Program-made: the position numbers and the translations under genes
Source of the DNA: Martinezella lusitana
GTDB taxonomy: Bacteria; Pseudomonadota; Alphaproteobacteria; Rhizobiales; Rhizobiaceae
Length of the DNA: 64,000 bases
Assembly (NCBI RefSeq): GCF_014207095.1
Contig: NZ_JACHBG010000003.1
Coordinates: 310,001-374,000, forward strand
Direction: 5' to 3'
The notes under the pieces: model-generated
Database searches by the model: none
Told to the model about the DNA's origin: nothing
What the model saw: only the letters and a program-made list of their open reading frames with translations
In this document: piece by piece, positions 12,377 to 61,031 of the stretch
How positions within the stretch are numbered: position 1 is the stretch's first letter
Layout: each line of letters opens with the position of its first letter

Positions 12377-12381
12377 AATAG

Positions 12382-43103: not shown

Positions 43104-44141
43104 ATGCGTCTGATCGCGGAGCGGCGAGACAGGTGGGCGCTATCGGCGCTCACCATGGCTGCATTCTTCCTTTTGGCCTTCATGATCAGCCTTGCGGTCT
43201 CGATCGGCGAGATTTCCATTCCGCTGTCGACGACGGCCAAGGTCGTATCGAACCGGTTGTTCGGGACGGCATTCGAGCTGAGCCTGATACATCAGGGCAT
43301 CGTTTGGGACTATCGGCTCAGCCGTGCGCTCGTTGCGGCAAGCGCCGGGGCGTCGCTGGCGCTGAGCGGTGTGATCCTGCAGGCCCTGCTGCGCAATCCG
43401 CTTGCGGAACCCTATGTGCTTGGCATTTCCGCAGGCGCCTCCACCGGCGCGGTCTGCATCATGATCCTCGGGCTCGGCTACGGCGTTTTGGGGCTTTCAG
43501 GCGGCGCCTTCATTGGCGCTGTTGCCGCGTTCCTGTTTGTCGGCTTGCTCGCAGCCGGTGTCGGCGGAACAAGTGAGCGTATCATCCTGTGCGGAGTTGC
43601 AGGCTCGCAGCTCTTCAATGCACTCACATCCTACATCGTCACGACGTCCGCGAACGCGGAGCAGGCGAGGGGTGTCATGTTCTGGCTTCTCGGCTCGATG
43701 AGCGGCGTGCGCTGGTCGGATGTCTATCTCTCCGGGCCGATCGCCATTATCGGCTTCATAGTCTGCATGGCGCATGTCCGCGTGCTCGATGCCTTCGTTT
43801 TTGGGACCGATGCTGCGGCATCGCTCGGTATTGCGGTGCGTCGTGCTCAGATCGTTCTTCTGGGGACGACGGCTTTCATGACTGCTGCAGTCGTCAGCGT
43901 CGTCGGCTCGATCGGCTTCGTTGGGCTCGTCATTCCGCATGCAGCCCGTTTCATGGTCGGTCCTAATCATGACCGGCTGTTGCCGGCGTCGGCGCTTGGC
44001 GGCGCGATCTTCATGGTCGCCGCCGATATCATCTCCCGGATCATCATTCCCCAGCAGATCCTGCCGATCGGCGTGGTGACCGCACTGTTCGGGGCTCCGG
44101 CCTTCGCAATCATTCTCTATCGCGCCCGGAGGACGGCATGA
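43104..44141 (+). CDS. BtuC-type ABC permease
   Basis: A 345-residue permease with about ten helices. It contains the family segments WDYRLSRALVAASAGASLALSG, LLRNPLAEPYVLGISAGASTGA, GFVGLVIPHAARFMVG and LPIGVVTALFGAPAFAIIL. Two bases separate it from the binding protein stop and its end overlaps the ATPase start (ATGA). Only one permease gene is present, so the channel is a homodimer as for BtuC. Confidence 0.92.
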   Translation: MRLIAERRDRWALSALTMAAFFLLAFMISLAVSIGEISIPLSTTAKVVSNRLFGTAFELSLIHQGIVWDYRLSRALVAASAGASLALSGVILQALLRNPLAEPYVLGISAGASTGAVCIMILGLGYGVLGLSGGAFIGAVAAFLFVGLLAAGVGGTSERIILCGVAGSQLFNALTSYIVTTSANAEQARGVMFWLLGSMSGVRWSDVYLSGPIAIIGFIVCMAHVRVLDAFVFGTDAAASLGIAVRRAQIVLLGTTAFMTAAVVSVVGSIGFVGLVIPHAARFMVGPNHDRLLPASALGGAIFMVAADIISRIIIPQQILPIGVVTALFGAPAFAIILYRARRTA

Positions 44142-44902
44142 GCATCGCGGTCGACAACGTCACCTTTGCTGCCGGCAATACGCTCATCGTCAACGGCATC
44201 AGCCTCTCGGTGGAAAAGGGCAAGGTGCTCGGTCTGCTGGGGCCGAATGGTTCCGGCAAGTCGAGCCTGTTGCGGCTGATCTGCCGGCTGCGAAAGGTGA
44301 GGAGTGGCGTTGTCAGGCTTGGCGGCAGCGACATTGCGTTGATCTCGCGCGGTGATATTGCCCGCCGCATCGCATTGGTGGAACAGCAGGCAACGACTGA
44401 TACACAGGTGACCGTCATTGATGTTGTTCGCCTTGGGCGCACTCCGCATCGCGGTCCGCTCTCGTCCTGGAGTGTCCGCGATGATGCGGCGGTTCTGGAT
44501 GCGCTCACCCGTGTCGGCATGCAGGATCGGGCGGGGCAGCTATGGCAGACTTTATCCGGCGGCGAGCGGCAGCGTGTCCACATCGCGAGAGCACTGGCGC
44601 AGACACCGAGCGAATTGCTGCTCGACGAACCGACGAACCATCTCGATATCCAGCATCAGCTGGACATTCTCGGCCTGATTTCCAAGCTCGATGTCACATC
44701 GGTCGTCGCCCTGCACGATCTCAATTTGGCGGCGATGTTCTGCGACAGTCTGGCGGTTCTGCAGAAGGGTGAGGTGGTCGCGGCCGGTTCACCGGAAGAG
44801 GTGCTGACGCAAGAGCTGATCGAACGGGTTTTCGGCGTGCGCGCGCATGTTCAGAAATCGTCGGTCCATGGCCGCTGCAACATTCAATATATGGCAGGCT
44901 GA
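44138..44902 (+). CDS. BtuD-type ABC ATPase
   Basis: A 254-residue ATPase with Walker A GPNGSGKSSLLRL, Q-loop residue in LVEQQATTD, signature LSGGERQRVHIARALAQ, Walker B LLLDEPTNHLD and switch His in ALHDLN. Completes a BtuFCD-like importer controlled by the upstream riboswitch. Confidence 0.93.
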   Translation: MSIAVDNVTFAAGNTLIVNGISLSVEKGKVLGLLGPNGSGKSSLLRLICRLRKVRSGVVRLGGSDIALISRGDIARRIALVEQQATTDTQVTVIDVVRLGRTPHRGPLSSWSVRDDAAVLDALTRVGMQDRAGQLWQTLSGGERQRVHIARALAQTPSELLLDEPTNHLDIQHQLDILGLISKLDVTSVVALHDLNLAAMFCDSLAVLQKGEVVAAGSPEEVLTQELIERVFGVRAHVQKSSVHGRCNIQYMAG

Positions 44903-44906
44903 CCTC

Positions 44907-45686
44907 ATGGATGGCGCAAATTTCGATCTCAAGGAAGAAATCCGCGATTATTGGTCGAAGCGATCGAAGACCTTCGACCTCGCCTTCGGCCACAAGATCG
45001 CTCCCGGCGCGGAGGCCGACGCCTGGCAGAAGCCCATCCGTGCGGCCCTCGGCTTGCAGCCAAAGCAGGTCCTGGAGCTTGCCTGCGGCACCGGCGAGGT
45101 AACACAGCTTATCCACGATCTCGGCCATGACGTGACCGCATTGGATTTTTCCGAGGCGATGCTTGCTGTTGCGCGCAGGAAACACGCGGGCAAGGCGCGC
45201 CTTCGCTTTCTGCTGGCCGATGCAGAGCATACGATGGAGCCGGATGAGGCCTATGATGCAATCGTCTGTCGCCACCTTGTCTGGACGCTGACGCGGCCGG
45301 AAGAGACGTTCAGAGAATGGTTCCGATTGTTGAAGCCGGGAGGGCATCTGGTCATTTTCGATGGCGATTGGGCGCAGCCGAAACCGGGCGGCCGGATCGC
45401 CATGATGTTGATTGCGCTGATCGATCGCATCTGCGGCGCCGACAGGAATTACGACGGCGCACTCAGCAGCCGCCATGCACGTATCATGGAGGCACTGCCC
45501 TTTGGCGACGGCCTGCATGCAGACGTGCTTGCGCCGATTTTGGAAACTGTTGGCTTTGCCGAGATTGAATTGCAGTCGCATTCACCCATCGCGAAGGCAC
45601 AGCGGAAGAACGCAAATCTGAGAAACAAGCTGCGGACCTTCGTCTACGGCAGGTTTATCCTTGTTTGCACGCGCCCGACGACCTAG
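44907..45686 (+). CDS. SAM-dependent methyltransferase in the B12 uptake operon
   Basis: A 259-residue class I methyltransferase. Motif I VLELACGTGEVTQLIHDLG (Ala in place of Gly), acidic TALDFSEAMLAVARRK, LADAEHTMEPDEAYDAIVCRHL, and RLLKPGGHLVIFDGDW are all present. It starts five bases after the ATPase stop and is thus under cobalamin riboswitch control. That suggests action on a corrinoid or on a product linked to methionine metabolism; the true substrate is unknown. Confidence 0.85.
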   Translation: MDGANFDLKEEIRDYWSKRSKTFDLAFGHKIAPGAEADAWQKPIRAALGLQPKQVLELACGTGEVTQLIHDLGHDVTALDFSEAMLAVARRKHAGKARLRFLLADAEHTMEPDEAYDAIVCRHLVWTLTRPEETFREWFRLLKPGGHLVIFDGDWAQPKPGGRIAMMLIALIDRICGADRNYDGALSSRHARIMEALPFGDGLHADVLAPILETVGFAEIELQSHSPIAKAQRKNANLRNKLRTFVYGRFILVCTRPTT

Positions 45687-45944: not shown

Positions 45945-46051
45945 AAAATAACGTCCACGGGCGGGGTGTCCCGGTGGTTGCTGCGGAGGTCTCGAAGGGA
46001 CTGTACCCGCACGCGTCCGCTTAACCCATGCCCCCACCAACCAAATGGGGT

Positions 46052-48397
46052 ATGACAGTGTCACAGAACAGCATTCCAGTCGCATCACTTGGCTTTCCAA
46101 GGATTGGTCTTCATCGTGAACTCAAGTTCGCGCTCGAAGGCTTCTGGTCTGGAAAGATTCCCGAATCCGAGCTGCTTGAGACCGCCAGGAAGCTCCGGGC
46201 GAGCAATTGGTTGCTCCAGCGCGATCGCGGCATCAGCCGCATCCCTTCCAACGATTTCTCTTTCTACGACCACGTGCTCGACACGGCGGTCATGGTCGGA
46301 GCGATCCCGTCCATCTACGGCTGGAGGGGCGGCGATGTTCCCCTGTCGACCTATTTCGCGATGGCGCGCGGCAGTGAGGGCGACGGCCCAGCCGATTGCG
46401 GCCACACCCATGACGGCCAAGGCATGCCGGCGCTCGAAATGACCAAGTGGTTCGATACCAACTATCACTTCATGGTGCCCGAGGTTTCGGAGGAGCAGGA
46501 CTTCGCGCTGACGTCGCAGAAGCCCGTCGATCATTTTCTCGAGGCAAAGGCGCTCGGTATTCACACGCGCCCCGTCATTCTCGGTCCCGTTACCTTCCTG
46601 AAGCTCGCTAAGGCTCGCCACGGAACATTCAAGCCGCTTGGCTTGCTGTCAAAACTGCTGCCGGTCTATGAAGAGTTGCTTCGCCGCCTTGTAGCTGCCG
46701 GCGCCGATTGGGTCCAGCTCGACGAGCCGATCGCCGTCCTCGACCTGACCGAAGGCGAGCGCCATGCCTTCTCGGTTGCCTACAAGGCGCTTACGAAGGC
46801 CGTGCCGGATCTGAAGATCATGCTGACCACCTATTTCGGCGCTCTTGCGGATAATCTCACCGCGCTCGCCGATCTGCCGGTGGCCGGACTTCATGTCGAT
46901 CTGACCCGCGCACCCGGCCAGCTCGATGATGTCGCAAAGGCCGTTCGCAAGGATCAGGTGTTGTCGCTCGGCATCATCGACGGACGTAACATATGGCGCG
47001 CTGATCTTGCCGCGATTGTCGACAAGCTTGCGCCGATTGTTGCCGTGCGCGGCGCGGACGGTATCGAAATTGCGTCGTCCTCGTCCCTGCTACATGTTCC
47101 GATCGATCTGGAGCTGGAGACGGGTCTTGATGCGGATCTGAAGAGTTGGCTAGCCTTCGCCACGCAGAAGCTTTCCGAACTTTCCGTGCTTGGCAAGGCG
47201 CTTGGAGGTGACAAGGCTGTGGTGGCTTCGGAAATCGAAGCCGTATCGAAGGCGATCGCAGCCCGGGCCTCCTCGTCGAAGGTGACGAATGCGTCGGTGC
47301 AGAGCCGAATTACAACGATCGGCAACGATCAAAAGAAGCGCGCCAGCGCGTTTGCCGATCGCCAGAAGATCCAGTCGGAAGCAATCAAGCTCCCGCTGTT
47401 CCCAACGACAACAATTGGCTCCTTCCCGCAGACTTCCGAGGTCCGCAAGGCTCGCTCGGCGCATTCGAAGGGCGCGCTGACGGACGCGCAGTATGAAGCC
47501 TTCCTGAGACAAGAAACCGAAGCCGCCATTCGCTGGCAGGAAGAAATCGGCCTCGACGTGCTTGTTCACGGCGAGTTCGAGCGTAACGACATGGTGCAGT
47601 TTTTCGGCGAGCAGCTGTGCGGCTTCGCCTTCACCCAGCATGCCTGGGTGCAGAGCTACGGTTCGCGTTATGTCCGTCCGCCGATCATCTTCGGCGACGT
47701 GTCGCGCCCGAAGCCGATGACCGTGCGCTGGTGGGAATATTCGCAGTCGCTCACCGACAAGCCGGTCAAGGGCATGCTGACGGGACCGGTGACGATTCTC
47801 AACTGGTCGTTCGTCCGCGACGATATCCCGCGCAGCGAGGCATGCCGGCAGATTGCGCTCGCCATTCGCGATGAGGTGAACGATCTCGAGGCGGCAGGTG
47901 CAAAGATGATTCAGATCGACGAAGCCGCCCTTCGTGAGGGGTTGCCGCTCAAGCACAAGGATTGGAAGCACTATCTCGATTGGGCCGTGGAAAGCTTCCG
48001 CATTTGCTCAAGCGGCGTTGGCGACAGGACGCAGGTGCACACCCATATGTGCTACTCGGAGTTCAATCAGATCATCGATGCCATTGCCGCGATGGATGCC
48101 GACGTCATCTCGATCGAGACATCCAGATCGAAGATGGAGCTGCTGGATGCTTTCCGGCACTTCAAGTACCCGAACGAGATCGGCCCCGGTGTCTACGATA
48201 TTCATTCGCCGCGTGTTCCCGAGGTCAAGGAGATGATGGACCTTCTGTCGCTGGCACGTCAGCGGTTGCAAGATCGGCAGATCTGGGTCAACCCGGATTG
48301 CGGATTGAAAACCCGCAAGTGGGAAGAGGTGAAGCCGGCGCTCGTCAACATGGTCGAAGCTGCTCGCAGCTTGCGACGGGAGCACGTCAAGGCCTAA
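46052..48397 (+). CDS. metE: Cobalamin-independent methionine synthase
   Basis: Transfers a methyl group from 5-methyltetrahydropteroyltriglutamate to homocysteine. The 781-residue protein has the duplicated barrel architecture: N-terminal half starting SLGFPRIGLHRELKFALEGFW and C-terminal catalytic half (TTTIGSFPQTSEVRKARSAH). Zinc ligands are visible in VHTHMCYSEFN (His and Cys), the ETSRSKMELL Glu segment and WVNPDCGLKTRKW (Cys). An ATG at 46028 in the same frame is an alternative start adding eight residues. The cobalamin riboswitch upstream is the standard control for metE. Confidence 0.97.
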   Translation: MTVSQNSIPVASLGFPRIGLHRELKFALEGFWSGKIPESELLETARKLRASNWLLQRDRGISRIPSNDFSFYDHVLDTAVMVGAIPSIYGWRGGDVPLSTYFAMARGSEGDGPADCGHTHDGQGMPALEMTKWFDTNYHFMVPEVSEEQDFALTSQKPVDHFLEAKALGIHTRPVILGPVTFLKLAKARHGTFKPLGLLSKLLPVYEELLRRLVAAGADWVQLDEPIAVLDLTEGERHAFSVAYKALTKAVPDLKIMLTTYFGALADNLTALADLPVAGLHVDLTRAPGQLDDVAKAVRKDQVLSLGIIDGRNIWRADLAAIVDKLAPIVAVRGADGIEIASSSSLLHVPIDLELETGLDADLKSWLAFATQKLSELSVLGKALGGDKAVVASEIEAVSKAIAARASSSKVTNASVQSRITTIGNDQKKRASAFADRQKIQSEAIKLPLFPTTTIGSFPQTSEVRKARSAHSKGALTDAQYEAFLRQETEAAIRWQEEIGLDVLVHGEFERNDMVQFFGEQLCGFAFTQHAWVQSYGSRYVRPPIIFGDVSRPKPMTVRWWEYSQSLTDKPVKGMLTGPVTILNWSFVRDDIPRSEACRQIALAIRDEVNDLEAAGAKMIQIDEAALREGLPLKHKDWKHYLDWAVESFRICSSGVGDRTQVHTHMCYSEFNQIIDAIAAMDADVISIETSRSKMELLDAFRHFKYPNEIGPGVYDIHSPRVPEVKEMMDLLSLARQRLQDRQIWVNPDCGLKTRKWEEVKPALVNMVEAARSLRREHVKA

Positions 48398-49868: not shown

Positions 49869-49910
49869 GAAGACACAACGTGCAACAATTCAGTTGCACG
49901 TTGTGTCTTC
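49869..49910. promoter_or_regulatory. Perfect 18-bp inverted repeat, candidate ArsR operator
   Basis: GAAGACACAACGTGCAAC (49869-49886) and GTTGCACGTTGTGTCTTC (49893-49910) are exact inverted repeats around the 6-base centre AATTCA. It lies 49 bases upstream of the SRPBCC-ArsR operon start. The inner part GTGCAAC-N6-GTTGCAC looks like an ArsR operator; the total length also permits a stable hairpin. Confidence 0.6.
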
Positions 49911-50003
49911 AAAAGCGTCTGCGGAAAGTCGCTGCCCTTCTGATGGGGGCGTGCCGCCAAGCATCGAGCTGATCACCTTCGCGGATACAAGGCGGCGCAT
50001 GGC

Positions 50004-50489
50004 TTATGCAGCGAATTTCAGCACCAATTCGATCTCATCTTCAAAAACCTCGCCTGTCGGCACGAAGCCGAGACGCTTGTAGAAGCCTTCAGGGCTGTCT
50101 TCGCCGACGACATAACAGGTGAACAATTCGGCAAATCCGCGCGCTTTCATCTCGCGCACGACAAGTGCGATCGCCTTTTCGCCGAAGCCCATGCGCTGAT
50201 AAGGTCCGGCGATCATCAGGCGCCAAAGGAAAGCGCCTGGACAATCGATGACATCGTAGTCCGAGCCGATATGCAGCATCACGAAGCCCACCGGCGTGTC
50301 ATCCGCGTAGATTGCGCGGAACCAGGCATTTTCGGAGAAATGCGCTTCAGCGATGGAGACGCTGTTGTCCGCGACCTTGTCGCGCTGGACTGCAGTCAGC
50401 GTCAGGCTCAAGTCGCAGATATCGCCGACGGTTGCCATGGTAACGCGGCGCAGGGAGATTTCTGAGGCCGAAGTTGGCTGTTCGGTCAT
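50004..50489 (-). CDS. GNAT N-acetyltransferase, PaiA/BltD-like (polyamine type)
   Basis: A 161-residue GNAT protein from ATG 50489 (after GGAAAACGATC). The segment IAEAHFSENAWFRAIYADDTPVGFVML matches the diamine/spermidine acetyltransferase subgroup; motif A is LWRLMIAGPYQRMGFGEKAIALVV, and the C-terminal FYKRLGFVPTGEV is present. Members acetylate spermidine, spermine or similar amines with acetyl-CoA. It lies 306 bases downstream of the PPTase and NRPS genes on the same strand, so a tailoring or self-protection role for a polyamine-like product is possible but unproved. Confidence 0.8.
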   Translation of the reverse strand: MTEQPTSASEISLRRVTMATVGDICDLSLTLTAVQRDKVADNSVSIAEAHFSENAWFRAIYADDTPVGFVMLHIGSDYDVIDCPGAFLWRLMIAGPYQRMGFGEKAIALVVREMKARGFAELFTCYVVGEDSPEGFYKRLGFVPTGEVFEDEIELVLKFAA

Positions 50490-50795
50490 GATCGTTTTCC
50501 AATTTGCGATAGCTGATCCGGCAATAGCGCCGTAGTTCGTCTCGTTCGCTGGCGATCTGAGAGCCACTTCCGGGACCCGACAATCGCGCTAGCGAGCATC
50601 ATTATTGAAATAAAACCGTAAGGCGAAATTGCGGCGCTATATTGGGCCGATCCAAAAGTTCAACCTCTCCGCAGTAGGTGGCGGCTTTCCGAGCCGAGCC
50701 CCAAGCCTCTCCAATCCTATTCAATGTTCTGGCGATCATGCCATCCCAGTGCTGCCAGTTCATGACATCGGGAATGGAGCGATCGTCGGCTCCTG
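50490..50795. other. Intergenic gap between the PPTase and acetyltransferase genes
   Basis: About 306 bases without a supported gene. No clear T-run terminator was seen, so read-through from the NRPS operon into the acetyltransferase gene cannot be excluded. Confidence 0.35.
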
Positions 50796-51446
50796 CTATG
50801 GAAGCGGCACGTCGGCAAGAACGACGATCCGGGGGAAAAGGCAGAACGAAAACCGCACCTTGCGGCCGCTCGTGGTGACCGCATTGCGGGCCTTGAGGTC
50901 GACGGCGATATGCTCATAGCCGAGAACGATGCGATCAAGCGGATAGCTGGCTTTGTAGACGGCCTCCTTGACACTGAACAGCAGGCGAGACGCAAGGCGC
51001 TCATCGACGCCGACAAGGGCGTCATCAGCGGTCTGCACGATCGCGGCGACCTCCTCGGGCAGGGGTTCTGCGGGCTCGACATCGATCCCAAGCGAGAGAA
51101 CCTCGGTCCTTCGCCCCACTGCAGCGACGGCAATCACGTCGTCATGGGCGAGGGAGCCGACGAAACCGGGCGGCCAGAGGGGCGCGCCCGAAGTCGCGCG
51201 CTTGATGACGGCGTTCTCGATCCCCTCTTGCGCCAGCAATTGTCGGGCAATCACGCGTGCAGCGCCGCTCGCACGTCGCGCTTCAAGTTGGCGCGACAGG
51301 ATGCTGCGCGACTCCTCCGGCAGCAGCAGATTTTCATCGCCGTTTCGGATCGAACGGCAACCGATGCTGACGCCAGATGGTGCCAGCTTCGTCAGTTCTA
51401 CGAGCAGCGCCACTTCCGCCGCGCGGAGGGGCGCTTCGCCGCTCAT
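50796..51446 (-). CDS. 4'-Phosphopantetheinyl transferase (EntD/Sfp superfamily)
   Basis: A 216-residue enzyme that loads the phosphopantetheine arm of coenzyme A onto carrier domains. Motifs: LWPPGFVGSLAHDD (P-loop-like WPxGxxGSLAH), LGIDVEPAE (the Mg-binding D-x-E) and the P3 motif LLFSVKEAVYKASYP, in the order of the EntD group. It overlaps the NRPS stop by four bases (ATGA), so it is translated with the enzyme it must activate. Confidence 0.92.
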   Translation of the reverse strand: MSGEAPLRAAEVALLVELTKLAPSGVSIGCRSIRNGDENLLLPEESRSILSRQLEARRASGAARVIARQLLAQEGIENAVIKRATSGAPLWPPGFVGSLAHDDVIAVAAVGRRTEVLSLGIDVEPAEPLPEEVAAIVQTADDALVGVDERLASRLLFSVKEAVYKASYPLDRIVLGYEHIAVDLKARNAVTTSGRKVRFSFCLFPRIVVLADVPLP

Positions 51447-54400
51447 GCGTCGGCGACCGGCCTGACGAAGGAATGCAGCTTGGCAGGGTTGCCGCGCCAG
51501 ATCGAGTACGGCTCGAGGATTTCGCCCTTCATGACGAAGCAGTCGACATCGGCGATCGAGCCGTCACCCATGGTCACGCCATAGTGGATGAAGGCGGCGG
51601 GGCTGAGCGTGCAGCCGTTGCCGATGCGGATGTAGTCCGACTTGAAGGCGCCTTCCTCCAAGGAATGCGCCTGGATGACGCAGCCTTCGTTGAGCGTCGC
51701 ATCGTCGCCGATTTCCACCAGCGAGCGTTCCGTCAGGTTTGAGCCGCCGTCATAGACGCGCCGGCCGACCTTGACGCCGAGCGCGCGCAGGATCATCGGG
51801 CGGAAAGGCGTGCCGGCAAACAGGCGCACGATCGGGGAATCGGCCAGCTTCCAATGGCGCTCGTGCCGCCAGAAGGTGATGTCATAGATGGTCGTCATCT
51901 GCGGCCGAAGGCGACGGAAGCCAAGGCTCGCCCATTCCACAAAAATATAGAAGGGTATCGTCAGGCTCGCCGTCAGCACGACTGCGACGAAGAGCGCCGT
52001 CTGTGCCCATTCCGTATAGTAATTCAGCGCCCGGTCCCAGATCGTCAGCGTCACAAACAGCGCTACCCACTGGGTGGCGACGAACATCAGCGCGGTCGCG
52101 AAATTGTGGCGATTCTTGTGGGGCAGACGAGCGCGGCGATCCTCGTCACTGACCCCCTGGATCAGTTCCATATCGCGCTTGACCATACGCGGAATCTCGA
52201 AGGGCGGGGAGCCGAGCAGGCCGACATTTTCGCGCAGCACGCCGTCGACGGGCACCATGACCTTCGTGCCGAGCAGGCAGTTCTCGCCGGTCTTGCCATC
52301 CGGCGGATAGAAGATATTGTTGCCGAAATAGTTGCGTTCGCCGACCTTGGTGTGTTCCAGCCGGAACGTGGAGGCCGATTTGTGGATGTTGATCATGTAG
52401 AGGCCGTCCGACACCATCGTGCCGCTACCGATCTCGCACATCAACGGATTGTCCTGCTGCTGGTTGCTGCCGAAGTTCGAGCCTGTCTGCACGACTTCAT
52501 TGAGATTCCAGCCGAGCGCCCGGATATAGTGGACGACAGCCGAACTGTCGCCGAACAGCAAGTTGACGAGGCGTATGTTGGTGCACACTTCGACGATCGA
52601 CTGCAGCCAGAAATGGAAGCCATAGAGCCTGTAGGTGCGTCCGGGCTTAAGGACGAGGCTGAACAGACGCGGCACAGCCAGCGCGGCTATGATTGCCAGC
52701 GCGATGGCGCCGAAGAGCGTGATGGTCGTGCCGATGGCGACGATACCGATCGTTTCCTGGTAGTCGTCGCTGACATTCTGCCAATAGGTCTGGAACAGCA
52801 ACGGAAATGGCGTGACGAGCGCGAACATGGTGATGAGCTGCACGGTATCGTAGAGAATACGACGCGTTCTCGAAAGCGTGACGCCATGAACCTTGCAATA
52901 GTCCGCCGAGGTCGAGACCGCGGGCGAGCCGTGCCAGTGGTCGTCGTCGGGAATATGCTGGCCGCGCCGCAGCGACGAGGCGTGACCGAGCTGGGCACGA
53001 TCACCGATCGACGTGTCGATATCGATGACGCAGCCGAGGCCGACGAAAGCATCGCGGCCGATGGCGATCGAACCGGTGTGGATATAGCCGGCTTGGGCGT
53101 GGTAGCCGAGAAGCGTCGATTCCTTGCGCAGGATCGAGTTCTCGCCGACCGAGATCAGGTCGGTGCAAACCGGAATGGTGCGGCATTCGATGGTGGTGTT
53201 GCGGCCCAGCCGCGCGCCGAGCATACGCAGATAGAGGCTGTAGAGCGGGCTGCCGCGGAACAGCACCACCGGTGCCGTGCGGATAAGCGTCTGTACCACC
53301 CAGAAGCGATAATAGCGCAAGCCCCAGATCGGGAAGCTCTCCGCCTTCCAGCGCCCGATCAGCAGCCATTTCATGAGCACGGCAAAGCCGGACATGCCGA
53401 AGAAGACGGCAGCCGATAGGATCGCGCAGCGCAGATAGAGTTGCACCGGATCGTCGAGCATCTCGTAGACCCAGTTGAGACCGTAATTCAGCAGCCAAAG
53501 GCTGAAATAGCTGTAGAGGCCATAGAAGGCGAGCTGCCCTATGCCGCAGGTCCAATAGGCGAAGTTCGAGGCGCGATGCGTGAGGCATGTCTCTTCGACG
53601 GCCACCACTTCTTCCTCGGGCCCGTGCAGATGCTGCGCGAGGGCCGCGACAGTTGGATGCATATAGATGTCGCGCATCGAGGTGGTTGCCCACTCCTTGC
53701 GCGTGCGCAATTTGGCGCAGAAGCGGGCCATCAGCAGCGAATTGGCGCCGAGATCGTCGAAGAAGTGATCTTCGACATAGATGTCGTCTATCTTCAGAAC
53801 TTCTCGAAGCGCGTCCGTCATGAAACGCTGGTCGTCGGTTGACGGCAGAATTTCATTGCGTTCCGTGCCGAGCCTCAGGCTGGCGGGCTTCGGAAGCTTG
53901 CGCGTGTCCACCTTGTCGGAAACCGTCATCGGCAGCGCCGGCAACTCTTCCAGGAACGAAGGGACCATATAGTCGGGCAGGCGGCGGCGCAGTTCCCTGG
54001 CAAGATCGCCGCGGGCGATCGCATCGGCGCCGATCTTCAGCGCATAGTAGCCGACGAGCTCAACGCGACCGGGCTCGATCTCCCACGTGGTGACTGCGGC
54101 CTGGGCAATGCCGGGCTGGTCGAGCAGAACCGCCTCGATCTCGCCGAGCTCGATGCGGTAGCCGCGGATCTTGACCTGCGTGTCGATGCGGCCGTGATAT
54201 TCGATTTCCCCGTCGCTGTTGATACGGCCGAGATCACCGGTGCGGTAGATCCGCTGCGAGGGATTGTTGGGCAGGCCGACGAAGTCAGGGATGAATTTCT
54301 GTTCGGTCAGATCGGGGCGGTTGAGATAGCCGACGGCAAGGCCGATGCCGGCGATGCCGATCTCGCCGAGTTCACCTGGTTCCGAAAGCTTTGGCGACTG

Positions 54401-55462
54401 CGCGTCGAGAATGACGATGGAGTAGGTCGGCAATGGCGCGCCGATGGTCACCGGGCGCTCCGGCGTCAGGTATCCCATGGTCGCAGTAACGGTTGCTTCC
54501 GTCGGGCCATAGGTGTTGAGGATCTGCCGCCCTTCTTTCGACCAGCGCGTCACGAGATTGTGCGGACAGGCCTCACCACCCACGAGGATGGCGCGGAGCG
54601 TCGGCACGTCGCTTTCGATCGAAGACAGCAGCGTTGGCGAACAGGCCATGCAGGTGATGGCATTTGCGCGCAGGAAATCTCCCAGCTCCTCGCCAACCAG
54701 GGTCATGCGACCAGGCGCAGGCACCACGGTAGCGCCTGCGGCGAAAGGTACCCATATCTCCTCGGTCGAGAAGTCGAAGGCGATGGTCATGCCCTGATAG
54801 ACACGGTCACCCGGACGGTAGCCATAGGCCTCTGCGGCGATGCGCACGAAGTTGCAGATGCTCTGGTGGCGTACGGCAACGCCCTTCGGCCGGCCGGTCG
54901 TACCCGAGGTATAGAGGATATAGCAGGTTTCGTCGTCCGTCGCTGCCACGTCCGGTAACGTGTCGGCATATCCGGCGATCTCGGAATAGTTCCCGTCGAT
55001 GACGACGTGCGGCACGGAAAGTCCCGCCGCGCGCGTTGCATAGTCGGGAACGGTGATGACGAGGCTGACGCCTGCATCCTCGACGATCAGCGCCATGCGC
55101 TCTTCCGGGAAGGCGGGCGCAAGCGGCACGAAGGCGGCGCCGGCCTTCATTACGGCCAGGATGGTAATATAGGTCTCGGCGGAACGATCGAGAAGCAGCG
55201 CCACGCGGTCGCCCGGCTTGACGCCACGTTCGATGATCAGTCGAGCGAAACGGTTGGCTTGAGCGTCCATTTCCCGATAGGTCCAGACGCGGCCATTGTC
55301 GATGACGGCAGGAGAAGGGCCATGGACATCGACCAGCATTTCGAAGACGCGGGAGAGCCGCTCGTCGGGGCGGCCTTTAAGGATTGAATCGGGGCCGCGC
55401 AGGATCTGCGGCGCGCGGCCTTTCCCGACTATTTCAATAACGTCCTGAGCCTGGCCGTGCAT
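51443..55462 (-). CDS. Pls/PosA-type non-ribosomal peptide synthetase with membrane-embedded beta-helix domains
   Basis: A 1,339-residue single-module NRPS from ATG 55462 (after CAGGGACCG); TTG 55489 would add nine residues. Adenylation domain about 40-530: core motifs YILYTSGTTGRPKG (A3), NTYGPTEATV (A5), YRTGDLG (A7), IRGYRIELGEIE (A8) and a Lys in SDKVDTRKLP (A10). Carrier domain with pantetheine Ser575 in DDLGANSLLMARF. The remaining 700 residues have about six transmembrane helices in three pairs, each followed by a left-handed beta-helix acyltransferase-like domain (about 745-860, 955-1100, 1205-1330). No condensation or thioesterase domain is present. This architecture is that of epsilon-poly-L-lysine synthetase, which makes an amino-acid homopolymer at the inner membrane. 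Product here unknown. Confidence 0.93.
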   Translation of the reverse strand: MHGQAQDVIEIVGKGRAPQILRGPDSILKGRPDERLSRVFEMLVDVHGPSPAVIDNGRVWTYREMDAQANRFARLIIERGVKPGDRVALLLDRSAETYITILAVMKAGAAFVPLAPAFPEERMALIVEDAGVSLVITVPDYATRAAGLSVPHVVIDGNYSEIAGYADTLPDVAATDDETCYILYTSGTTGRPKGVAVRHQSICNFVRIAAEAYGYRPGDRVYQGMTIAFDFSTEEIWVPFAAGATVVPAPGRMTLVGEELGDFLRANAITCMACSPTLLSSIESDVPTLRAILVGGEACPHNLVTRWSKEGRQILNTYGPTEATVTATMGYLTPERPVTIGAPLPTYSIVILDAQSPKLSEPGELGEIGIAGIGLAVGYLNRPDLTEQKFIPDFVGLPNNPSQRIYRTGDLGRINSDGEIEYHGRIDTQVKIRGYRIELGEIEAVLLDQPGIAQAAVTTWEIEPGRVELVGYYALKIGADAIARGDLARELRRRLPDYMVPSFLEELPALPMTVSDKVDTRKLPKPASLRLGTERNEILPSTDDQRFMTDALREVLKIDDIYVEDHFFDDLGANSLLMARFCAKLRTRKEWATTSMRDIYMHPTVAALAQHLHGPEEEVVAVEETCLTHRASNFAYWTCGIGQLAFYGLYSYFSLWLLNYGLNWVYEMLDDPVQLYLRCAILSAAVFFGMSGFAVLMKWLLIGRWKAESFPIWGLRYYRFWVVQTLIRTAPVVLFRGSPLYSLYLRMLGARLGRNTTIECRTIPVCTDLISVGENSILRKESTLLGYHAQAGYIHTGSIAIGRDAFVGLGCVIDIDTSIGDRAQLGHASSLRRGQHIPDDDHWHGSPAVSTSADYCKVHGVTLSRTRRILYDTVQLITMFALVTPFPLLFQTYWQNVSDDYQETIGIVAIGTTITLFGAIALAIIAALAVPRLFSLVLKPGRTYRLYGFHFWLQSIVEVCTNIRLVNLLFGDSSAVVHYIRALGWNLNEVVQTGSNFGSNQQQDNPLMCEIGSGTMVSDGLYMINIHKSASTFRLEHTKVGERNYFGNNIFYPPDGKTGENCLLGTKVMVPVDGVLRENVGLLGSPPFEIPRMVKRDMELIQGVSDEDRRARLPHKNRHNFATALMFVATQWVALFVTLTIWDRALNYYTEWAQTALFVAVVLTASLTIPFYIFVEWASLGFRRLRPQMTTIYDITFWRHERHWKLADSPIVRLFAGTPFRPMILRALGVKVGRRVYDGGSNLTERSLVEIGDDATLNEGCVIQAHSLEEGAFKSDYIRIGNGCTLSPAAFIHYGVTMGDGSIADVDCFVMKGEILEPYSIWRGNPAKLHSFVRPVADA

Positions 55463-55902
55463 TTCGGTCCCTGATTCACTGATTTCCAAAATTGCGTCTG
55501 CTTGCCGTTTTCGGCGGTGCCAAAGGCAGCTGCAGTTGCCGCGCAGGCGGCTTACGAGCTACCCAGGCAAAAGGAAAGTGGATTTTGCGGCATATTAAAA
55601 AAAAGTAACCTTTTGTGCCGTGTAGTGGCGCGAACGCTTCGGGCAGGCGCGCAGGACCGGCTCTTTGCGGCCATCGCGTGGGTATAAATCTACCGCTGAG
55701 GACCATGTCGCTCATCGTTCAGGTTCCCGGATCCTAGTGCCCGCGACGATACTTTCCCCACCGCAACCTAACTTAGATTGGGATCGTGCAGGCACCCGAT
55801 ACAATCTGGCGTTTTCGGCCCATCGTCAAGCAAAACGAGAACGCGATCGCTTTTCCGACGCGCGCTACGCAAAATGTTTGGATTTTGCAATCCCATCGGG
55901 AA
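55463..55902. other. Promoter region of the NRPS operon
   Basis: About 440 bases without a gene. It includes an A-run region (around 55598-55615) that lowers local GC and may hold the NRPS promoter. The upstream aminotransferase gene ends at 55903, in the same direction; no strong terminator was recognised. Confidence 0.4.
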
Positions 55903-57219
55903 CTACCAGGCGGCAAAGCCCTCGGTGATCGAATCCGGGACGAGTCCATTGGAGATGTCGGCAAAAGCCTGATCGAGGATATTGATCGCCCGGTCGATTT
56001 CGTCTTCGGTAATCGTCAGCGGCGGCGTGATTTCGAGAACATTGCCGCTCATCCCGACGTAGTAGAGCACGAGCCCCAGCTCGTAGGCGCGATAGATGAG
56101 CTTTGCCGTTTCGCGCTTTACCGGAACGCGGCTTCCTCCCTGCTTAACGAGCTCGACGCCGCAGGCGAGCCCGCGGCCCCGAACATCACCGATGAGAGCG
56201 TGCTTGTCGGCAAGCTGCAACAATTTTCGGTGCAGGACTTGCCCCTTCTGCCCGGCCGCGTCGGAAAGGCCTTCTTTCTCGATCGTGTCGAGGACGGCAA
56301 GACCGGCCGCCGCGCAGATGGGATTTCCTTGCAGGGTCTGCATGGCAAAGGCGCTTGCACAGTCCAGGATCCTTTTTGGAGCGATCACCGCCGATAGCGG
56401 CAGACCTCCACCCAGACCTTTGCCAAGGACCAGAATGTCCGGAACGAAGCCCTCATGCTCGAAGCAATGCAGCTTGCCGCTGCGGCCGAGGCCGACCTTC
56501 ACCTCGTCGCAGACAACGAGGATATCGTGTTCCCGGCATAGGGCTGCAAATTTTTGGAGGAAGCCCTCGGGCGGCACGATCACGCCGCCATCCGAGAGGA
56601 TCGGTTCGATGAAGGCCGCAGCAAAGGATTTGGGCTCGGCCTCCCTCAGCTTCGCTCGGAAAAGCTTGAGAACCGCATCACCGCTCGGGTCGTCGCGGTA
56701 GGGGCGATAGGGATCAGGGTAAGGAAGCTGCAGCAAACCTTCTGCCTTTGCGGCTCCCGCCTGCACGGTATGGCCGGAAAATGCCATAGAGCCGATGGTG
56801 CAGCCGTGATAGGCACCGGTGAAGGAGACGAGGCCGGTGCGGCCGGTCGCCTCCATCACGGCCCGAGAGACTGCTTCGTTGGCGTCCGAACCGGAGTGGC
56901 CGAACCAAATCTTATGTGTGCCCTTGCCAGGAAAGGACGCCAGCAGCTTTTCGGCCAGCGCCACAGCCGGCTCGTTCGAAGCCGACAGAATGCTGGCGCC
57001 TGCGGGATTGGCAACTGCGCGGGAGACCGCTTCGACAATCGCAGGGTGACCGTAACCAAGACTTGCTGCGCCCCATGCTCCGGAAAAATCGATGAGTTCC
57101 CGACCGCTTTCCTCGATCAGCGTCGCGCCTTTGCCGCCCGCGACAGCGAGAGGAAAAAAGCGTAGCTTCTGCAAGGAGCCGATGGCCTTGCCATCGCGCT
57201 CGTAGAGCGCTTCCGTCAT
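55903..57219 (-). CDS. Class III PLP-dependent aminotransferase
   Basis: A 438-residue enzyme. PLP-binding features: SGSDANEAVSRA, YHGCTIGSMAFSG, the Asp of ILVVCDEVKVGLGRSG and the Schiff-base Lys in LVLGKGLGGGLPLSA. ATG 57219 overlaps the upstream amidohydrolase stop (ATGA), after GGAGGAGTGCC. It resembles omega-amino acid or amine:pyruvate-type aminotransferases of amine catabolism. Although next to the NRPS gene, its coupling upstream places it in the RpiR-associated catabolic operon. Confidence 0.9.
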   Translation of the reverse strand: MTEALYERDGKAIGSLQKLRFFPLAVAGGKGATLIEESGRELIDFSGAWGAASLGYGHPAIVEAVSRAVANPAGASILSASNEPAVALAEKLLASFPGKGTHKIWFGHSGSDANEAVSRAVMEATGRTGLVSFTGAYHGCTIGSMAFSGHTVQAGAAKAEGLLQLPYPDPYRPYRDDPSGDAVLKLFRAKLREAEPKSFAAAFIEPILSDGGVIVPPEGFLQKFAALCREHDILVVCDEVKVGLGRSGKLHCFEHEGFVPDILVLGKGLGGGLPLSAVIAPKRILDCASAFAMQTLQGNPICAAAGLAVLDTIEKEGLSDAAGQKGQVLHRKLLQLADKHALIGDVRGRGLACGVELVKQGGSRVPVKRETAKLIYRAYELGLVLYYVGMSGNVLEITPPLTITEDEIDRAINILDQAFADISNGLVPDSITEGFAAW

Positions 57220-58037
57220 TCCGGGCACTCCTCCAGCGCGGTTTCAAGGCAGCGGGTGAGGCAGGCTCCCCAATGATTTACGCCGGCGAGCGTGTCGATC
57301 AGATCGTGGCGCACTTCGATCAAAGCTCCGGGGAGCCCCCGCCCATCCGCATGCACCGGCACCGTGTAGTCTTCGTCCGGATGAATGTTATAGGGCTCAT
57401 TGTCGCCGATGGTGAGATCGGGATCCGCGCTCAGCGAGCGGATCAGCGACCGGGCGAAGGCTTCGGCATCCCGATAGAGGATACCAGCCTGCCAGGGGCG
57501 CGTGTTGCCGAAGTAGACCGGCGTGAAGCTGTGGATGCCGACGACCAGGGTGCGCCTGCCTTCGGCCTGCCTCAGATCCAGCCGCCTGGAAATCGCATCG
57601 GCGAAGGGCTTGAACAGGCTGTCGACGCGATTTGCCTTCTCGGCGTCGCTCAGATCGAGATTGCCCGGCACCATGGTGGTCTCGCTGACCTCCGGAATGG
57701 CGGTGGGTGCGCCCAGGGGGCGATTGCAATCGATCACAAGGCGCGAGTAGTTGGCCATGAACAGGGGGGCGTCGAGTCTCCGGCTCAAATATTGAGCAAG
57801 AGCTGAGACGCCGATGTCCCAGGCAATATGACGCCGGCGCTCGCTTTCCGGCAGGCCGAGGTCACCGAGCGCCCGGGGGATGCGATTGGATGCGTGTTCG
57901 CACAAAAGCAGGTAGGGCGAGCGGCCGTCAGGGTTGACGACCGCATAAGGCGGCGGCTCGTCGATCGCAAGCAATGGCAGCTGCGGGTCGTGTCGCCACC
58001 GGTTTTCCGGGCGTTTGATGGCTGTGGTCGAAGTCAT
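57216..58037 (-). CDS. N-formylglutamate amidohydrolase family protein
   Basis: A 273-residue zinc amidohydrolase of PF05013. Visible motifs: LLLCEHASNRIPRAL (metal Glu and His), HIAWDIGVSALAQYLS, NYSRLVIDCNRP, and VVGIHSFTPVYFG (metal His). In histidine catabolism this family (HutG) removes the formyl or formimino group of glutamate; here the neighbours are not hut genes, so another N-acyl or gamma-glutamyl substrate is likely. It is 10 bases after the glutamine-synthetase-like gene. Confidence 0.88.
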   Translation of the reverse strand: MTSTTAIKRPENRWRHDPQLPLLAIDEPPPYAVVNPDGRSPYLLLCEHASNRIPRALGDLGLPESERRRHIAWDIGVSALAQYLSRRLDAPLFMANYSRLVIDCNRPLGAPTAIPEVSETTMVPGNLDLSDAEKANRVDSLFKPFADAISRRLDLRQAEGRRTLVVGIHSFTPVYFGNTRPWQAGILYRDAEAFARSLIRSLSADPDLTIGDNEPYNIHPDEDYTVPVHADGRGLPGALIEVRHDLIDTLAGVNHWGACLTRCLETALEECPE

Positions 58038-58047
58038 GATCCATCCA

Positions 58048-59394
58048 TCAATATACGGAGGCGTAACGGGCGCAGAGCACTTCGGGAGAAAGGTCTGCGA
58101 CGATCTCGATCTCCTTGCGCTTCATGGCAAAGTAGCAATCGAGGAAGTCCTTGGAGAACCAGCCTGTCACGGTTTTGTCCGCGGCAAGCGTGTCGAGGGC
58201 CTCGGAAAGGCTCGACGGCAGGCGGTGAACACCAAGTTTTACCTGTTCTTCCGCCGAGAAGTTCGAAGGGTCCGAATTGATCAATGGCGGCTGCTCGAGC
58301 CCCGCCCTTATGCCCTCGAGGCCGGCCTTGAGGACGACGGCCAGGGATAGGTGCGGACTGGCGCAGGCGTCTGCGGCGCGATACTCCATGTTGAATTGCC
58401 TGGCCGGATCGCTTCCCGGCAGGTCCAGTGTCGGGCAGATGCGCAGGGTGGCCTCGCGGTTCTTTTCGCCGAGGCAGGTAAAGGCGGCGCTCCAGTGATG
58501 CGGCACGAGGCGCATATAGGAGAGCACTGAGGGCGCCGTAAATGCCGCAAGTGCCGGCAGATGCTTGATGACGCCGGCGGCAAACGAGCCGGCCACCTTG
58601 GAAAGCCGGCCAGGTCGTGACGCATCGAAAGTGACAGGCTTGCCCTCAAGGTCGGTGAAGCTCACATGCAGGTGCACGCCGTTGCCGACGCCGTTCGGGT
58701 CGGTTTTCGGCGCGAAGCTCGCATTCCAGCCGAAGAGCGCTGCCACTTCCTTGGTGACGGCGCGAATGGTCGCGCCCCTGTCGGCGGCGGCGAGCGCGGG
58801 TGCAGGGCGGCAGGTGATTTCGAATTGATCCTTGCCATATTCCGGCAGGAACATTTCCGGCTCCGCGCCGGCTTCCTTCAGCGCTGTCATCAGCAGCGGG
58901 CCGAAGGGTTCGGCGCGGCGCTGCGCGCGCAGACCGAAGGAGGGAGCGGCCGGCCAGTCGACGCCAAGAAGCTGGAACTCCTGTTCGACTGCCGCGACGA
59001 CCTTGAGCCCCGCCTCGCGTTCGAATTCCGAAATCGTTGCCTTGAGGAAACTGCGCACGCAGCATTCCCAGGGCTCGCCCTTCAGATTGGTGATATCGGA
59101 GTGATAAAAATGCAACGGTGTGACGTCGGGCAGGCAGGTGACGCGCGCCTTGCTGTCGGGATCCGCTATCAGCCTGAGGTCGCCGGATGAGCCCCATGGG
59201 TTGGGATCGGCAATCAGGTCGAATGGCGTCAGTGCCAGGTTGGCGGGCACCCAGCCGACCCCTTTGCGCAGGTAGCTGTCGATTTCGGATGCGGCGAAGC
59301 TGCGGCCTCTTGTGATGCCGGCGATATCGGTTGTGACGAAGGTGGCAAGCTCCATCAGGTCGGAGGTTGCCTTGCCGTTGCTGTTGTCGCTCAT
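58048..59394 (-). CDS. Glutamine synthetase family protein (gamma-glutamyl-amine ligase-like)
   Basis: A 448-residue class III/PuuA-like GS. The catalytic domain shows AAVEQEFQL (first metal Glu), FEITCRPAPALAAADRG, GNGVHLHVSF, NREATLRICP and FNMEYRAADACASPHLSLAVVLKAG, which corresponds to the conserved NxExRxxDxxxNPYL region with differences. These enzymes ligate glutamate to an amine instead of ammonia. Together with an amidohydrolase and aminotransferase it suggests catabolism of an amine through a gamma-glutamyl intermediate. Confidence 0.88.
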   Translation of the reverse strand: MSDNSNGKATSDLMELATFVTTDIAGITRGRSFAASEIDSYLRKGVGWVPANLALTPFDLIADPNPWGSSGDLRLIADPDSKARVTCLPDVTPLHFYHSDITNLKGEPWECCVRSFLKATISEFEREAGLKVVAAVEQEFQLLGVDWPAAPSFGLRAQRRAEPFGPLLMTALKEAGAEPEMFLPEYGKDQFEITCRPAPALAAADRGATIRAVTKEVAALFGWNASFAPKTDPNGVGNGVHLHVSFTDLEGKPVTFDASRPGRLSKVAGSFAAGVIKHLPALAAFTAPSVLSYMRLVPHHWSAAFTCLGEKNREATLRICPTLDLPGSDPARQFNMEYRAADACASPHLSLAVVLKAGLEGIRAGLEQPPLINSDPSNFSAEEQVKLGVHRLPSSLSEALDTLAADKTVTGWFSKDFLDCYFAMKRKEIEIVADLSPEVLCARYASVY

Positions 59395-59441
59395 GAGTTC
59401 CCCTTGTTTCGTGTCTGCCTATGGAGCTGCGCCGGCGGAGA

Positions 59442-60104
59442 TCACGCTGCGGCGAGGCCTTTCAGGCGGTCGACAACGGTTTCGGTATCTGTGGTCCAGC
59501 AATAGCCGGAATAGGCGCGAAGAGCGCCTTCATGGCGTTCCTGGCTGTAGGTGGCGCAGGCATCCGCGACCACGGTCACCAGATAGCCGCGGTCGGCAGC
59601 ATCGCGCACGGCCATGTCGACGCACTGATCTGTCACGACGCCGGCAATGATAAGATAGCGGGTGTTGAGGTTGCGCAGCACGTAGTCGATGTTGGTCGAA
59701 TTGAAGACACCGGAGGATGTCTTCGGCAGGATGATCTCGTTGTCGATCGGCTTCAGTGCGTCGATTACCTGGCCTTCCGGCGAGCCCTTCGGTACGTGCA
59801 TGTCGGAAAGCTTGTGATCGAGCGAACGGTCGCGGCCGTCGAGCGTCAGGCTCTCGATGATCGTATGCAGTACGTTGCAGCCGGCCGTGCGCGCTGCTTC
59901 GAGGATACGAACCTGGTTCGGGATCACCGTATCGCGCAGGCGACGGTGATAGTAGCTGTCGGCATCCTGTGGATGCGTCGGATCAAGGTTCGGCTCGCAC
60001 CAGATGCGCTGCATATCGACAAAAAGCACGCTAGTCGTGCCGGGTTCGTAGGCGCTGTCGCGCCGCAGCAGATCCTTGCCGTACTGTACTTCAATCATGC
60101 CCAT
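59442..60104 (-). CDS. Isochorismatase-like cysteine hydrolase
   Basis: A 220-residue protein of the isochorismatase superfamily. The catalytic triad is visible: Asp in VLFVDMQRIW, Lys in IILPKTSSGVFNST and Cys in GVVTDQCVDMAVRDAADRGY. Family members include N-carbamoylsarcosine, nicotinamide and ureidoacrylate amidases, so an amide or ureide is a likely substrate. ATG 60104 follows GGAGGACAGAC. It sits between the GS-like and RpiR genes. Confidence 0.9.
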   Translation of the reverse strand: MGMIEVQYGKDLLRRDSAYEPGTTSVLFVDMQRIWCEPNLDPTHPQDADSYYHRRLRDTVIPNQVRILEAARTAGCNVLHTIIESLTLDGRDRSLDHKLSDMHVPKGSPEGQVIDALKPIDNEIILPKTSSGVFNSTNIDYVLRNLNTRYLIIAGVVTDQCVDMAVRDAADRGYLVTVVADACATYSQERHEGALRAYSGYCWTTDTETVVDRLKGLAAA

Positions 60105-60149
60105 GTCTGTCCTCCAGAGGAAATCTCGTTTCGTCGTTGTCGCGGGATC

Positions 60150-61031
60150 TCACGTCCCGCTGCCGACTGCTGTGGTGTAGGCGTCTTCGGTAATGGCGTA
60201 GCTGCGGCGCAACTCTTCCATGCGTTCGATCCGCTGGCGGGATTGCGTTGCAAGCCGCGCGGTAAGGCCGGCAATCAAGGCTTCGGTCTGCGCGATAGCC
60301 GGGACCATCGTGTCGTAGGGCGACACCGTGTCGACGGTCGACGTCAGAGTGACGGAGGCGAACTGCCCAATGGGCGAGAGCCATCGATCGGTGAACAGCA
60401 CGATCTTTGCACCCTGTTTTGCCGCCTGCCGGGCAAAACGGATCGTATCGTTCTGATAGCGCCGATAGTCGTAAACGAAGAGGACGTCGCGCTTGCCGAA
60501 GTCGACCAGGTGGTCGACCTGATCGGCCTGTGAACCGTTGATCCAGCGAGTGTCCGGACGTAGTTGCTTCATGTGGGACCAGAGAAGGCCGGCCATGAAG
60601 CCGCTGAAGCGGCCGCCGAGACAGTGAACCCTGAGATTGAGATCGGCGGCGGCATCGATTGCTGCCTCGAAATCGTCAGGCGGCAGCATATGCATCGAGG
60701 ATTCCAGCGCGTGAACGCTGGCGCGCAAGAAATACTGATAGAAATTTTCCTGTTCGAGCGAGGGCTTGCGGGTGTCGAGCATGGACAGCGGCGAACTCAT
60801 GCGTTCCTGCACTTCGTCGAGCAACGCGGCCTGGAATTCCGCATAGCCCTCATACCCCAGCTTGTTGGCGAAACGCACAACCGTCGGGTTGCTGACGTCG
60901 GCTGCCGTGGCGAGATTGGCCACGGTGTTGAGGGCCGCCGCCGGATAGTTCGACAGCAGCTGCCGGACGATCTTGAGTTCGGCGCGGGTAAAATCGATGC
61001 CCCCTTCGGTGAGGCGATCTCGAATGGTCAC
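60150..61031 (-). CDS. MurR/RpiR-family transcriptional regulator
   Basis: A 293-residue regulator: N-terminal HTH_6 domain (LNTVANLATAADVSNPTVVRFANKLGYEGYAEFQ) and C-terminal SIS domain (about 120-260, VHCLGGRFSGFMAGLLW and GAKIVLFTDRWLSPI) that usually binds a phosphosugar or related ligand. It heads the catabolic operon and is divergent from the Liv-type transporter, and probably controls both. Confidence 0.93.
   Translation of the reverse strand: MTIRDRLTEGGIDFTRAELKIVRQLLSNYPAAALNTVANLATAADVSNPTVVRFANKLGYEGYAEFQAALLDEVQERMSSPLSMLDTRKPSLEQENFYQYFLRASVHALESSMHMLPPDDFEAAIDAAADLNLRVHCLGGRFSGFMAGLLWSHMKQLRPDTRWINGSQADQVDHLVDFGKRDVLFVYDYRRYQNDTIRFARQAAKQGAKIVLFTDRWLSPIGQFASVTLTSTVDTVSPYDTMVPAIAQTEALIAGLTARLATQSRQRIERMEELRRSYAITEDAYTTAVGSGT

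Follow-up and report, generated by a model that had tools for sequence, protein, structure and literature searches.

The window analysed here is a 64,000-nucleotide stretch of the Martinezella lusitana genome (contig NZ_JACHBG010000003.1). Its minus strand carries a gene for a large synthetase assigned to the Pls/PosA family, a 4'-phosphopantetheinyl transferase (PPTase) gene overlapping its 3' end, and a GNAT acetyltransferase gene beyond these two (Table 1). The coordinates of the first two ORFs and the length of their overlap agreed with the initial annotation.

Table 1. Features of the synthetase locus (positions in the window)
Feature	Coordinates	Strand	Evidence
Synthetase, Pls/PosA-family, single-module, 1,339 aa	51443..55462	-	TIGR02353, 846 bits (cut-off 423.1); Pfam; dN/dS
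Adenylation domain, residues about 46-517, code DFEALGTVTK	53912..55327	-	PF00501 and PF13193; code reading
Carrier domain, residues 549-612, attachment Ser575	53627..53818	-	PF00550; Ser in 71/71 aligned sequences
Membrane polymerisation region, residues 639-1327, three helix pairs and three beta-helix acyltransferase-like modules (predicted)	51482..53548	-	TIGR02353, hydropathy, AlphaFold2 model, Foldseek
4'-Phosphopantetheinyl transferase, 216 aa, 4-base overlap with synthetase	50796..51446	-	PF17837 and PF01648 over cut-off
GNAT acetyltransferase, 187 aa from first start codon, possible third locus member	50004..50567	-	PF00583 over cut-off

In the ORF list, the synthetase gene (55462..51443) opens with an ATG codon; an alternative TTG start at 55489, 5' of this ATG, would give a protein of 1,348 aa. 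The Pfam matches comprised AMP-binding (46-380), AMP-binding_C (441-517) and PP-binding (549-612). Condensation and thioesterase families were absent from the matches at E <= 0.001, which bears out the domain content originally claimed. NCBIfam model TIGR02353 ('Pls/PosA family non-ribosomal peptide synthetase'), against which the family assignment was to be checked, covered residues 639-1327 with 846.1 bits, twice its cut-off. Membership of the Pls/PosA family is therefore secure at the sequence level. No other protein of the genome exceeded the cut-off of this model (eight further matches, <= 27.7 bits). The dN/dS ratio was 0.03-0.15 in comparisons with five relatives that are 98-82% identical (loci L039, L043, L038, L040, L042) and 0.225 in comparison with L048 (70% identical). 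The values for the five relatives exclude a chance ORF, and the synthetase is under strong purifying selection.

Hydropathy averaged over 68 relatives revealed six hydrophobic segments in the polymerisation region (about 640-662, 679-697, 866-897, 912-930, 1124-1142 and 1157-1175). An AlphaFold2 model of residues 615-1339, built from a 23-sequence alignment (mean pLDDT 85.5, pTM 0.88), placed them in three helix pairs with a beta-rich module after each. In a Foldseek search, parts of this model resembled hexapeptide-repeat acetyltransferases (best E 3.8e-5 among the matches listed); none of the 50 matches listed covered the region in full length, TM-scores by query length being <= 0.18, and a sequence search of solved structures likewise gave no full-length match for it. 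The predicted fold is thus in line with the six membrane helices and three beta-helix acyltransferase-like domains initially described, and the same predicted layout, membrane helices around three tandem domains, is given for PosA in PMC10522769.

The overall architecture is shared with PosA, the delta-poly-L-ornithine synthetase of Acinetobacter baumannii (PMC10522769), and with Pls, the epsilon-poly-L-lysine synthetase of Streptomyces. The adenylation domain matched the structures of both (PosA, 8g95, E 5e-77; Pls, 7wew, E 9e-78). The resemblance of the three modules to acetyltransferases that act once might suggest that the membrane region performs a single acyl transfer, i.e. aminoacylation of a lipid or surface group, and makes no polymer. 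This is very unlikely, given that PMC10522769, PMC4668381 and PMC8117764 describe the similarly built members for which a product has been identified as polymer synthetases.

The specificity code of the adenylation domain was read at the Stachelhaus positions of GrsA, for which motifs of the window synthetase served as anchors. The code obtained was DFEALGTVTK. Two checks indicate that the anchors hold. Five sequences of another type found in the genus (the code was read in five of 22) gave DLEDIGTVVK, which is among the codes that PMC10522769 lists for rhizobia. Locus L021 (8349-12359, minus strand; genome G038), a family member from another family of the order, gave DGESVSVVNK, one letter off DGESISVVNK, the code published for epsilon-poly-beta-lysine synthetase (PMC10522769).

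The code of the window synthetase is identical to that of PosA (DMEHNGTVSK) at positions 1, 3, 6, 7, 8 and 10, and with D and E at positions 1 and 3 and T at both 7 and 9 it is in line with the PosA contact residues D, E, T and S. It thus contains the Asp and Glu at positions 1 and 3 that are the rule for the family (PMC10522769). In the same study position 2 is tied to the length of the substrate chain, with Ala in lysine enzymes, Met in ornithine enzymes such as PosA, and Phe in the PDAP and PDAB synthetases. The window synthetase has neither the Ala expected for epsilon-poly-lysine nor the Met expected for delta-poly-ornithine; its residue is Phe, as expected for gamma-poly-diaminobutyrate and likewise given for PDAP synthetase, which by this rule counts against lysine and ornithine. 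The rhizobial type with the code DLEDIGTV(T/V/I)K (PMC10522769) occurs in the same family and in further species of the same genus, and at L022 it is followed by a PPTase gene as in the window; however, it is only 29-33% identical to the window synthetase and differs at three or four code positions. DFEALGTVTK coincides with no lysine, ornithine or published rhizobial code and so identifies no monomer, and a plain transfer of the label 'polylysine' or 'poly-diaminobutyrate' is not supported. The cationic isopeptide product proposed in the initial annotation is a fair inference by analogy with the family and from the Asp/Glu pair, while a code match to lysine or ornithine enzymes was not obtained.

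One scan of genome contigs yielded 61 loci, which were divided into 43 of the window type (synthetases with a DFEA code) and 18 of a sister clade (DFEC codes). DFEALGTVTK was found in 41 of the window-type loci, and DFEAMGTVTK and DFEALGTITK in one each; 17 sister loci had DFEC codes, and in L079 the adenylation domain fell outside the ORF read. A quick tree of 64 sequences, computed without L019, L020, L023-L025, L076 and L079 (short or redundant), placed all 45 DFEA rows together with 99% SH-aLRT support. The 16 DFEC rows were also grouped (89%), in a part of the tree drawn open with long branches flagged. The nearest clade consists of the gamma-poly-diaminobutyrate synthetases (PldA/PddA) and the DFEC sister clade, which are 42-48% identical to the window synthetase and share its Phe at position 2.

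In the sample of 148 genomes of the genus, 30 contained a match at E <= 1e-100. Six of these (own genome counted) were of the window type, at 75-100% identity, 22 were 31-33% identical, and the remaining two aligned only over the A-T part within much longer ORFs. There was one match per matching genome, so the window type and the other genus type were never observed together in this sample. The sample of 394 genomes of the family, which overlaps with the genus and locus samples, gave 35 matches, 23 of them at least 69% identical. Carriers include Rhizobium freirei, R. miluonense, R. straminoryzae, Shinella, Neorhizobium, Phyllobacterium, Pleomorphomonas and many Mesorhizobium. Judged by sequence, the window synthetase is a member of a conserved, uncharacterised Hyphomicrobiales clade marked by DFEALGTVTK. 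Our literature search found no study of this clade; the code may yet appear in Supplementary Table 2 of PMC10522769.

A divergent family relative was observed at L019 (11102-14452, minus strand; genome G047), in which the Pls-type polymerisation region is preceded by four carrier domains in tandem and lacks an adenylation domain ahead of it. OCD-family and PALP genes, of the kind involved in diaminopropionate synthesis, lie upstream in the same orientation, and downstream an NRPS gene with condensation, adenylation and carrier domains. L019 looks like a variant whose monomer would be loaded by a separate protein.

The protein encoded next to the window synthetase contains the Pfam domains 4PPT_N and ACPS, which confirms it as a PPTase. 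The label 'EntD-type' proved loose, as the EntD profile scored only 26.9 bits (cut-off 169), and the Npt/PptT profiles scored better (93.8 and 89.6 bits), though also far under their cut-offs. A related PPTase gene lies 3' of the synthetase in 42 of the 43 window-type loci, L087 being the exception, and all 42 proteins contain the G-D-E and KE---K motifs. In 14 loci the PPTase gene adjoins or overlaps the synthetase gene and in 28 it follows after a gap of 437-502 bases, counts that depend on mechanically chosen ORF starts (at L049 an early start hides the gap). The linkage differs from the situation in A. baumannii, where posA is reported to form a single-gene operon (PMC10522769). PPTase-like genes were also present near the synthetase in sister loci L062, L065, L067, L068 and L070. 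Over the same six relatives the PPTase evolves faster than the synthetase (dN/dS 0.17-0.36). The description of this enzyme as the synthetase's own holds as regards genetic linkage; it need not be exclusive, because the genome encodes three further members of the PPTase superfamily that score over cut-off. At L036 (genome G094, 75% identical) no PPTase gene was seen, and its place at the contig end is occupied by a transposase-domain ORF (DUF772; 11817-12503, plus strand) that starts at the 3' end of the synthetase gene.

The gap between the synthetase and PPTase genes corresponds to a GNAT gene, which directly follows the synthetase in 30 of the 43 window-type loci, L087 included. The GNAT of the window, located past the PPTase gene, is 30-34% identical to those of the 30 loci, and its close relatives lie past the PPTase gene in L038, L039 and L043. 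No GNAT gene was found in the other 10 window-type loci; the sequence of L037 ends at the PPTase gene. The GNAT gene is a possible third member of the locus. One GNAT had EctA as its best NCBIfam match, at 31.7 bits against a cut-off of 120.6, and identification as EctA was rejected; three others were nearest to RimI, and the window GNAT had no NCBIfam match. A scan of positions 49900-56000 gave two promoter-like and three terminator-like sites (means in shuffled sequences, 1.7 and 5.1); these sites were discarded. Elsewhere in the window, genes for a FecCD-type permease, an ABC ATPase and a methyltransferase lie in a row on the plus strand (43104-45686), near a gene for cobalamin-independent methionine synthase (46028-48397).

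The published gene set of poly-diaminobutyrate synthetases comprises dat and an aspartate kinase gene (PMC8117764, PMC8225329). Three Dat proteins, all confirmed, and an aspartate kinase served as tblastn queries against the 61 loci. Dat was detected at 52-100% identity in 12 of the 18 sister loci (L062, L063, L065, L067-L072, L076, L078, L092), and aspartate kinase in six (L069, L071, L072, L076, L078, L085). An earlier clustering of mechanically chosen ORFs had missed genes and found Dat at seven sister loci; the tblastn counts are used here. Of seven of the 12 Dat genes that were profiled, six exceeded the cut-off of TIGR00709; the seventh, a fragment truncated by the contig end at L062, exceeded only that of PRK09264. 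In contrast, neither gene of the sister type was found by tblastn at any of the 43 window-type loci, where the Dat queries detected only 28-30% identical aminotransferases (L037, L039, L043).

The class III aminotransferase gene ending 440 bases 5' of the window synthetase (57228..55903) was considered as a monomer supplier and rejected as a conserved partner. Its product scored 229.7 bits (Dat cut-off, 401.6) and is only 29% identical to sister-clade Dat, and the gene was found adjoining the synthetase gene only in the two closest relatives, L037 and L039. It belongs to a same-strand run (55903-61031, minus strand) with genes for an RpiR-type regulator and isochorismatase-like, glutamine-synthetase-like and N-formylglutamate-amidohydrolase-like (FGase) proteins, which is probably a catabolic operon.

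Genome-wide, the search for supply enzymes covered 50 of the 61 loci (all but seven of the window type and four of the sister clade), in 49 genomes, of which 36 were window-type and 13 sister. Among the 36 window-type genomes, Dat exceeded its cut-off in 10 and SbnB (diaminopropionate) in none; among the 13 sister genomes, Dat did so in all 13 (Fisher p 4e-6 for Dat) and SbnB in six. Taxonomy adds to these contrasts, as the sister genomes are mostly of other families and phyla. Weaker matches to the SbnB superfamily occurred in 31 of the 36 window-type genomes; the M. lusitana genome has three, none over cut-off. With Dat at none of 43 loci and in 10 of 36 genomes, and SbnB in none of 36, the products implied by the nearest relatives are poorly supported for the window type. 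The monomer could not be derived from co-occurrence either, since neither Dat/EctB nor SbnB tracks the window type: Dat was present in 4/23 window-type versus 46/371 other genomes of the family sample (p 0.51), while in the genus sample EctB leaned the opposite way (3/6 versus 22/142, p 0.06).

The last figure, together with Phe at position 2, the Dat genes near the sister synthetases and the single EctB/Dat gene over cut-off in the M. lusitana genome, away from the synthetase locus, could be taken to mean that the window synthetase makes gamma-poly-diaminobutyrate, the diaminobutyrate coming from an EctB/Dat gene elsewhere or from another source. Diaminobutyrate is a possible monomer in this strain, but most carriers have no known enzyme for it, and code positions 4, 6 and 7 are not those of the sister clade, so we regard this product as rather unlikely. 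The EctB/Dat gene itself sits on a short contig (L113, G000:C50; 5,071 bases), between an IS66 transposase gene and a gene for a LuxR-type autoinducer-binding regulator; no ectA or ectC was noticed among the ORFs of this contig.

A diamino acid of primary metabolism, most likely ornithine, would need no dedicated supply gene, which fits the absence of such genes from most carriers, and six code positions are shared with PosA. The smaller residue at position 4 would then change the shape of the pocket around Phe at position 2. However, the position 2 residue of PosA touches the chain of ornithine, and bulkier residues at this site go with shorter substrates (PMC10522769). We put a monomer of this kind forward as a tentative possibility, somewhat better placed than diaminobutyrate.

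Taken as a whole, the window synthetase is very probably a cationic homopoly-amino-acid synthetase of the Pls/PosA family, representing an uncharacterised Hyphomicrobiales subgroup and working as follows. The linked PPTase would load Ser575 of the carrier domain with phosphopantetheine. The adenylation domain would activate a single alpha-amino acid whose side chain provides a second, basic group, with Asp230 and Glu234, which align with the PosA residues holding the two amines, as their likely counterparts. By analogy with studied members, the membrane region and the three beta-helix modules would link the monomers at the side-chain amine, giving a polycationic isopeptide of short length. Phe at position 2 suggests a short side chain, as in diaminobutyrate or diaminopropionate; because most carriers lack the known supply enzymes, the monomer may also be ornithine or some other common diamino acid, or may come from a supply route that is not recognised. 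The GNAT often encoded at the locus might modify or detoxify the monomer or polymer. It is conceivable, though doubtful, that the DFEALGTVTK subgroup makes a homopolymer new to bacteria, without the diaminobutyrate or diaminopropionate pathways of its nearest relatives; such a product could, with the same doubt, contain a new monomer or be a polymer partly N-acetylated by the GNAT of the locus.

In the literature surveyed, PosA is the sole Gram-negative family member with an identified product. For the proposed polymer the initial annotation named attachment, biofilm, competition and symbiosis as candidate roles; a knockout of the Gram-negative member studied in PMC10522769 slightly increased biofilm. 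The clade described here is kept in Rhizobium, Mesorhizobium, Shinella and their relatives, mostly with a linked activating enzyme, and its pocket falls outside the published code assignments examined. It is a compact case in which to study how the residues of the pocket determine the monomer, and what a predicted polycation may do for root-associated bacteria.
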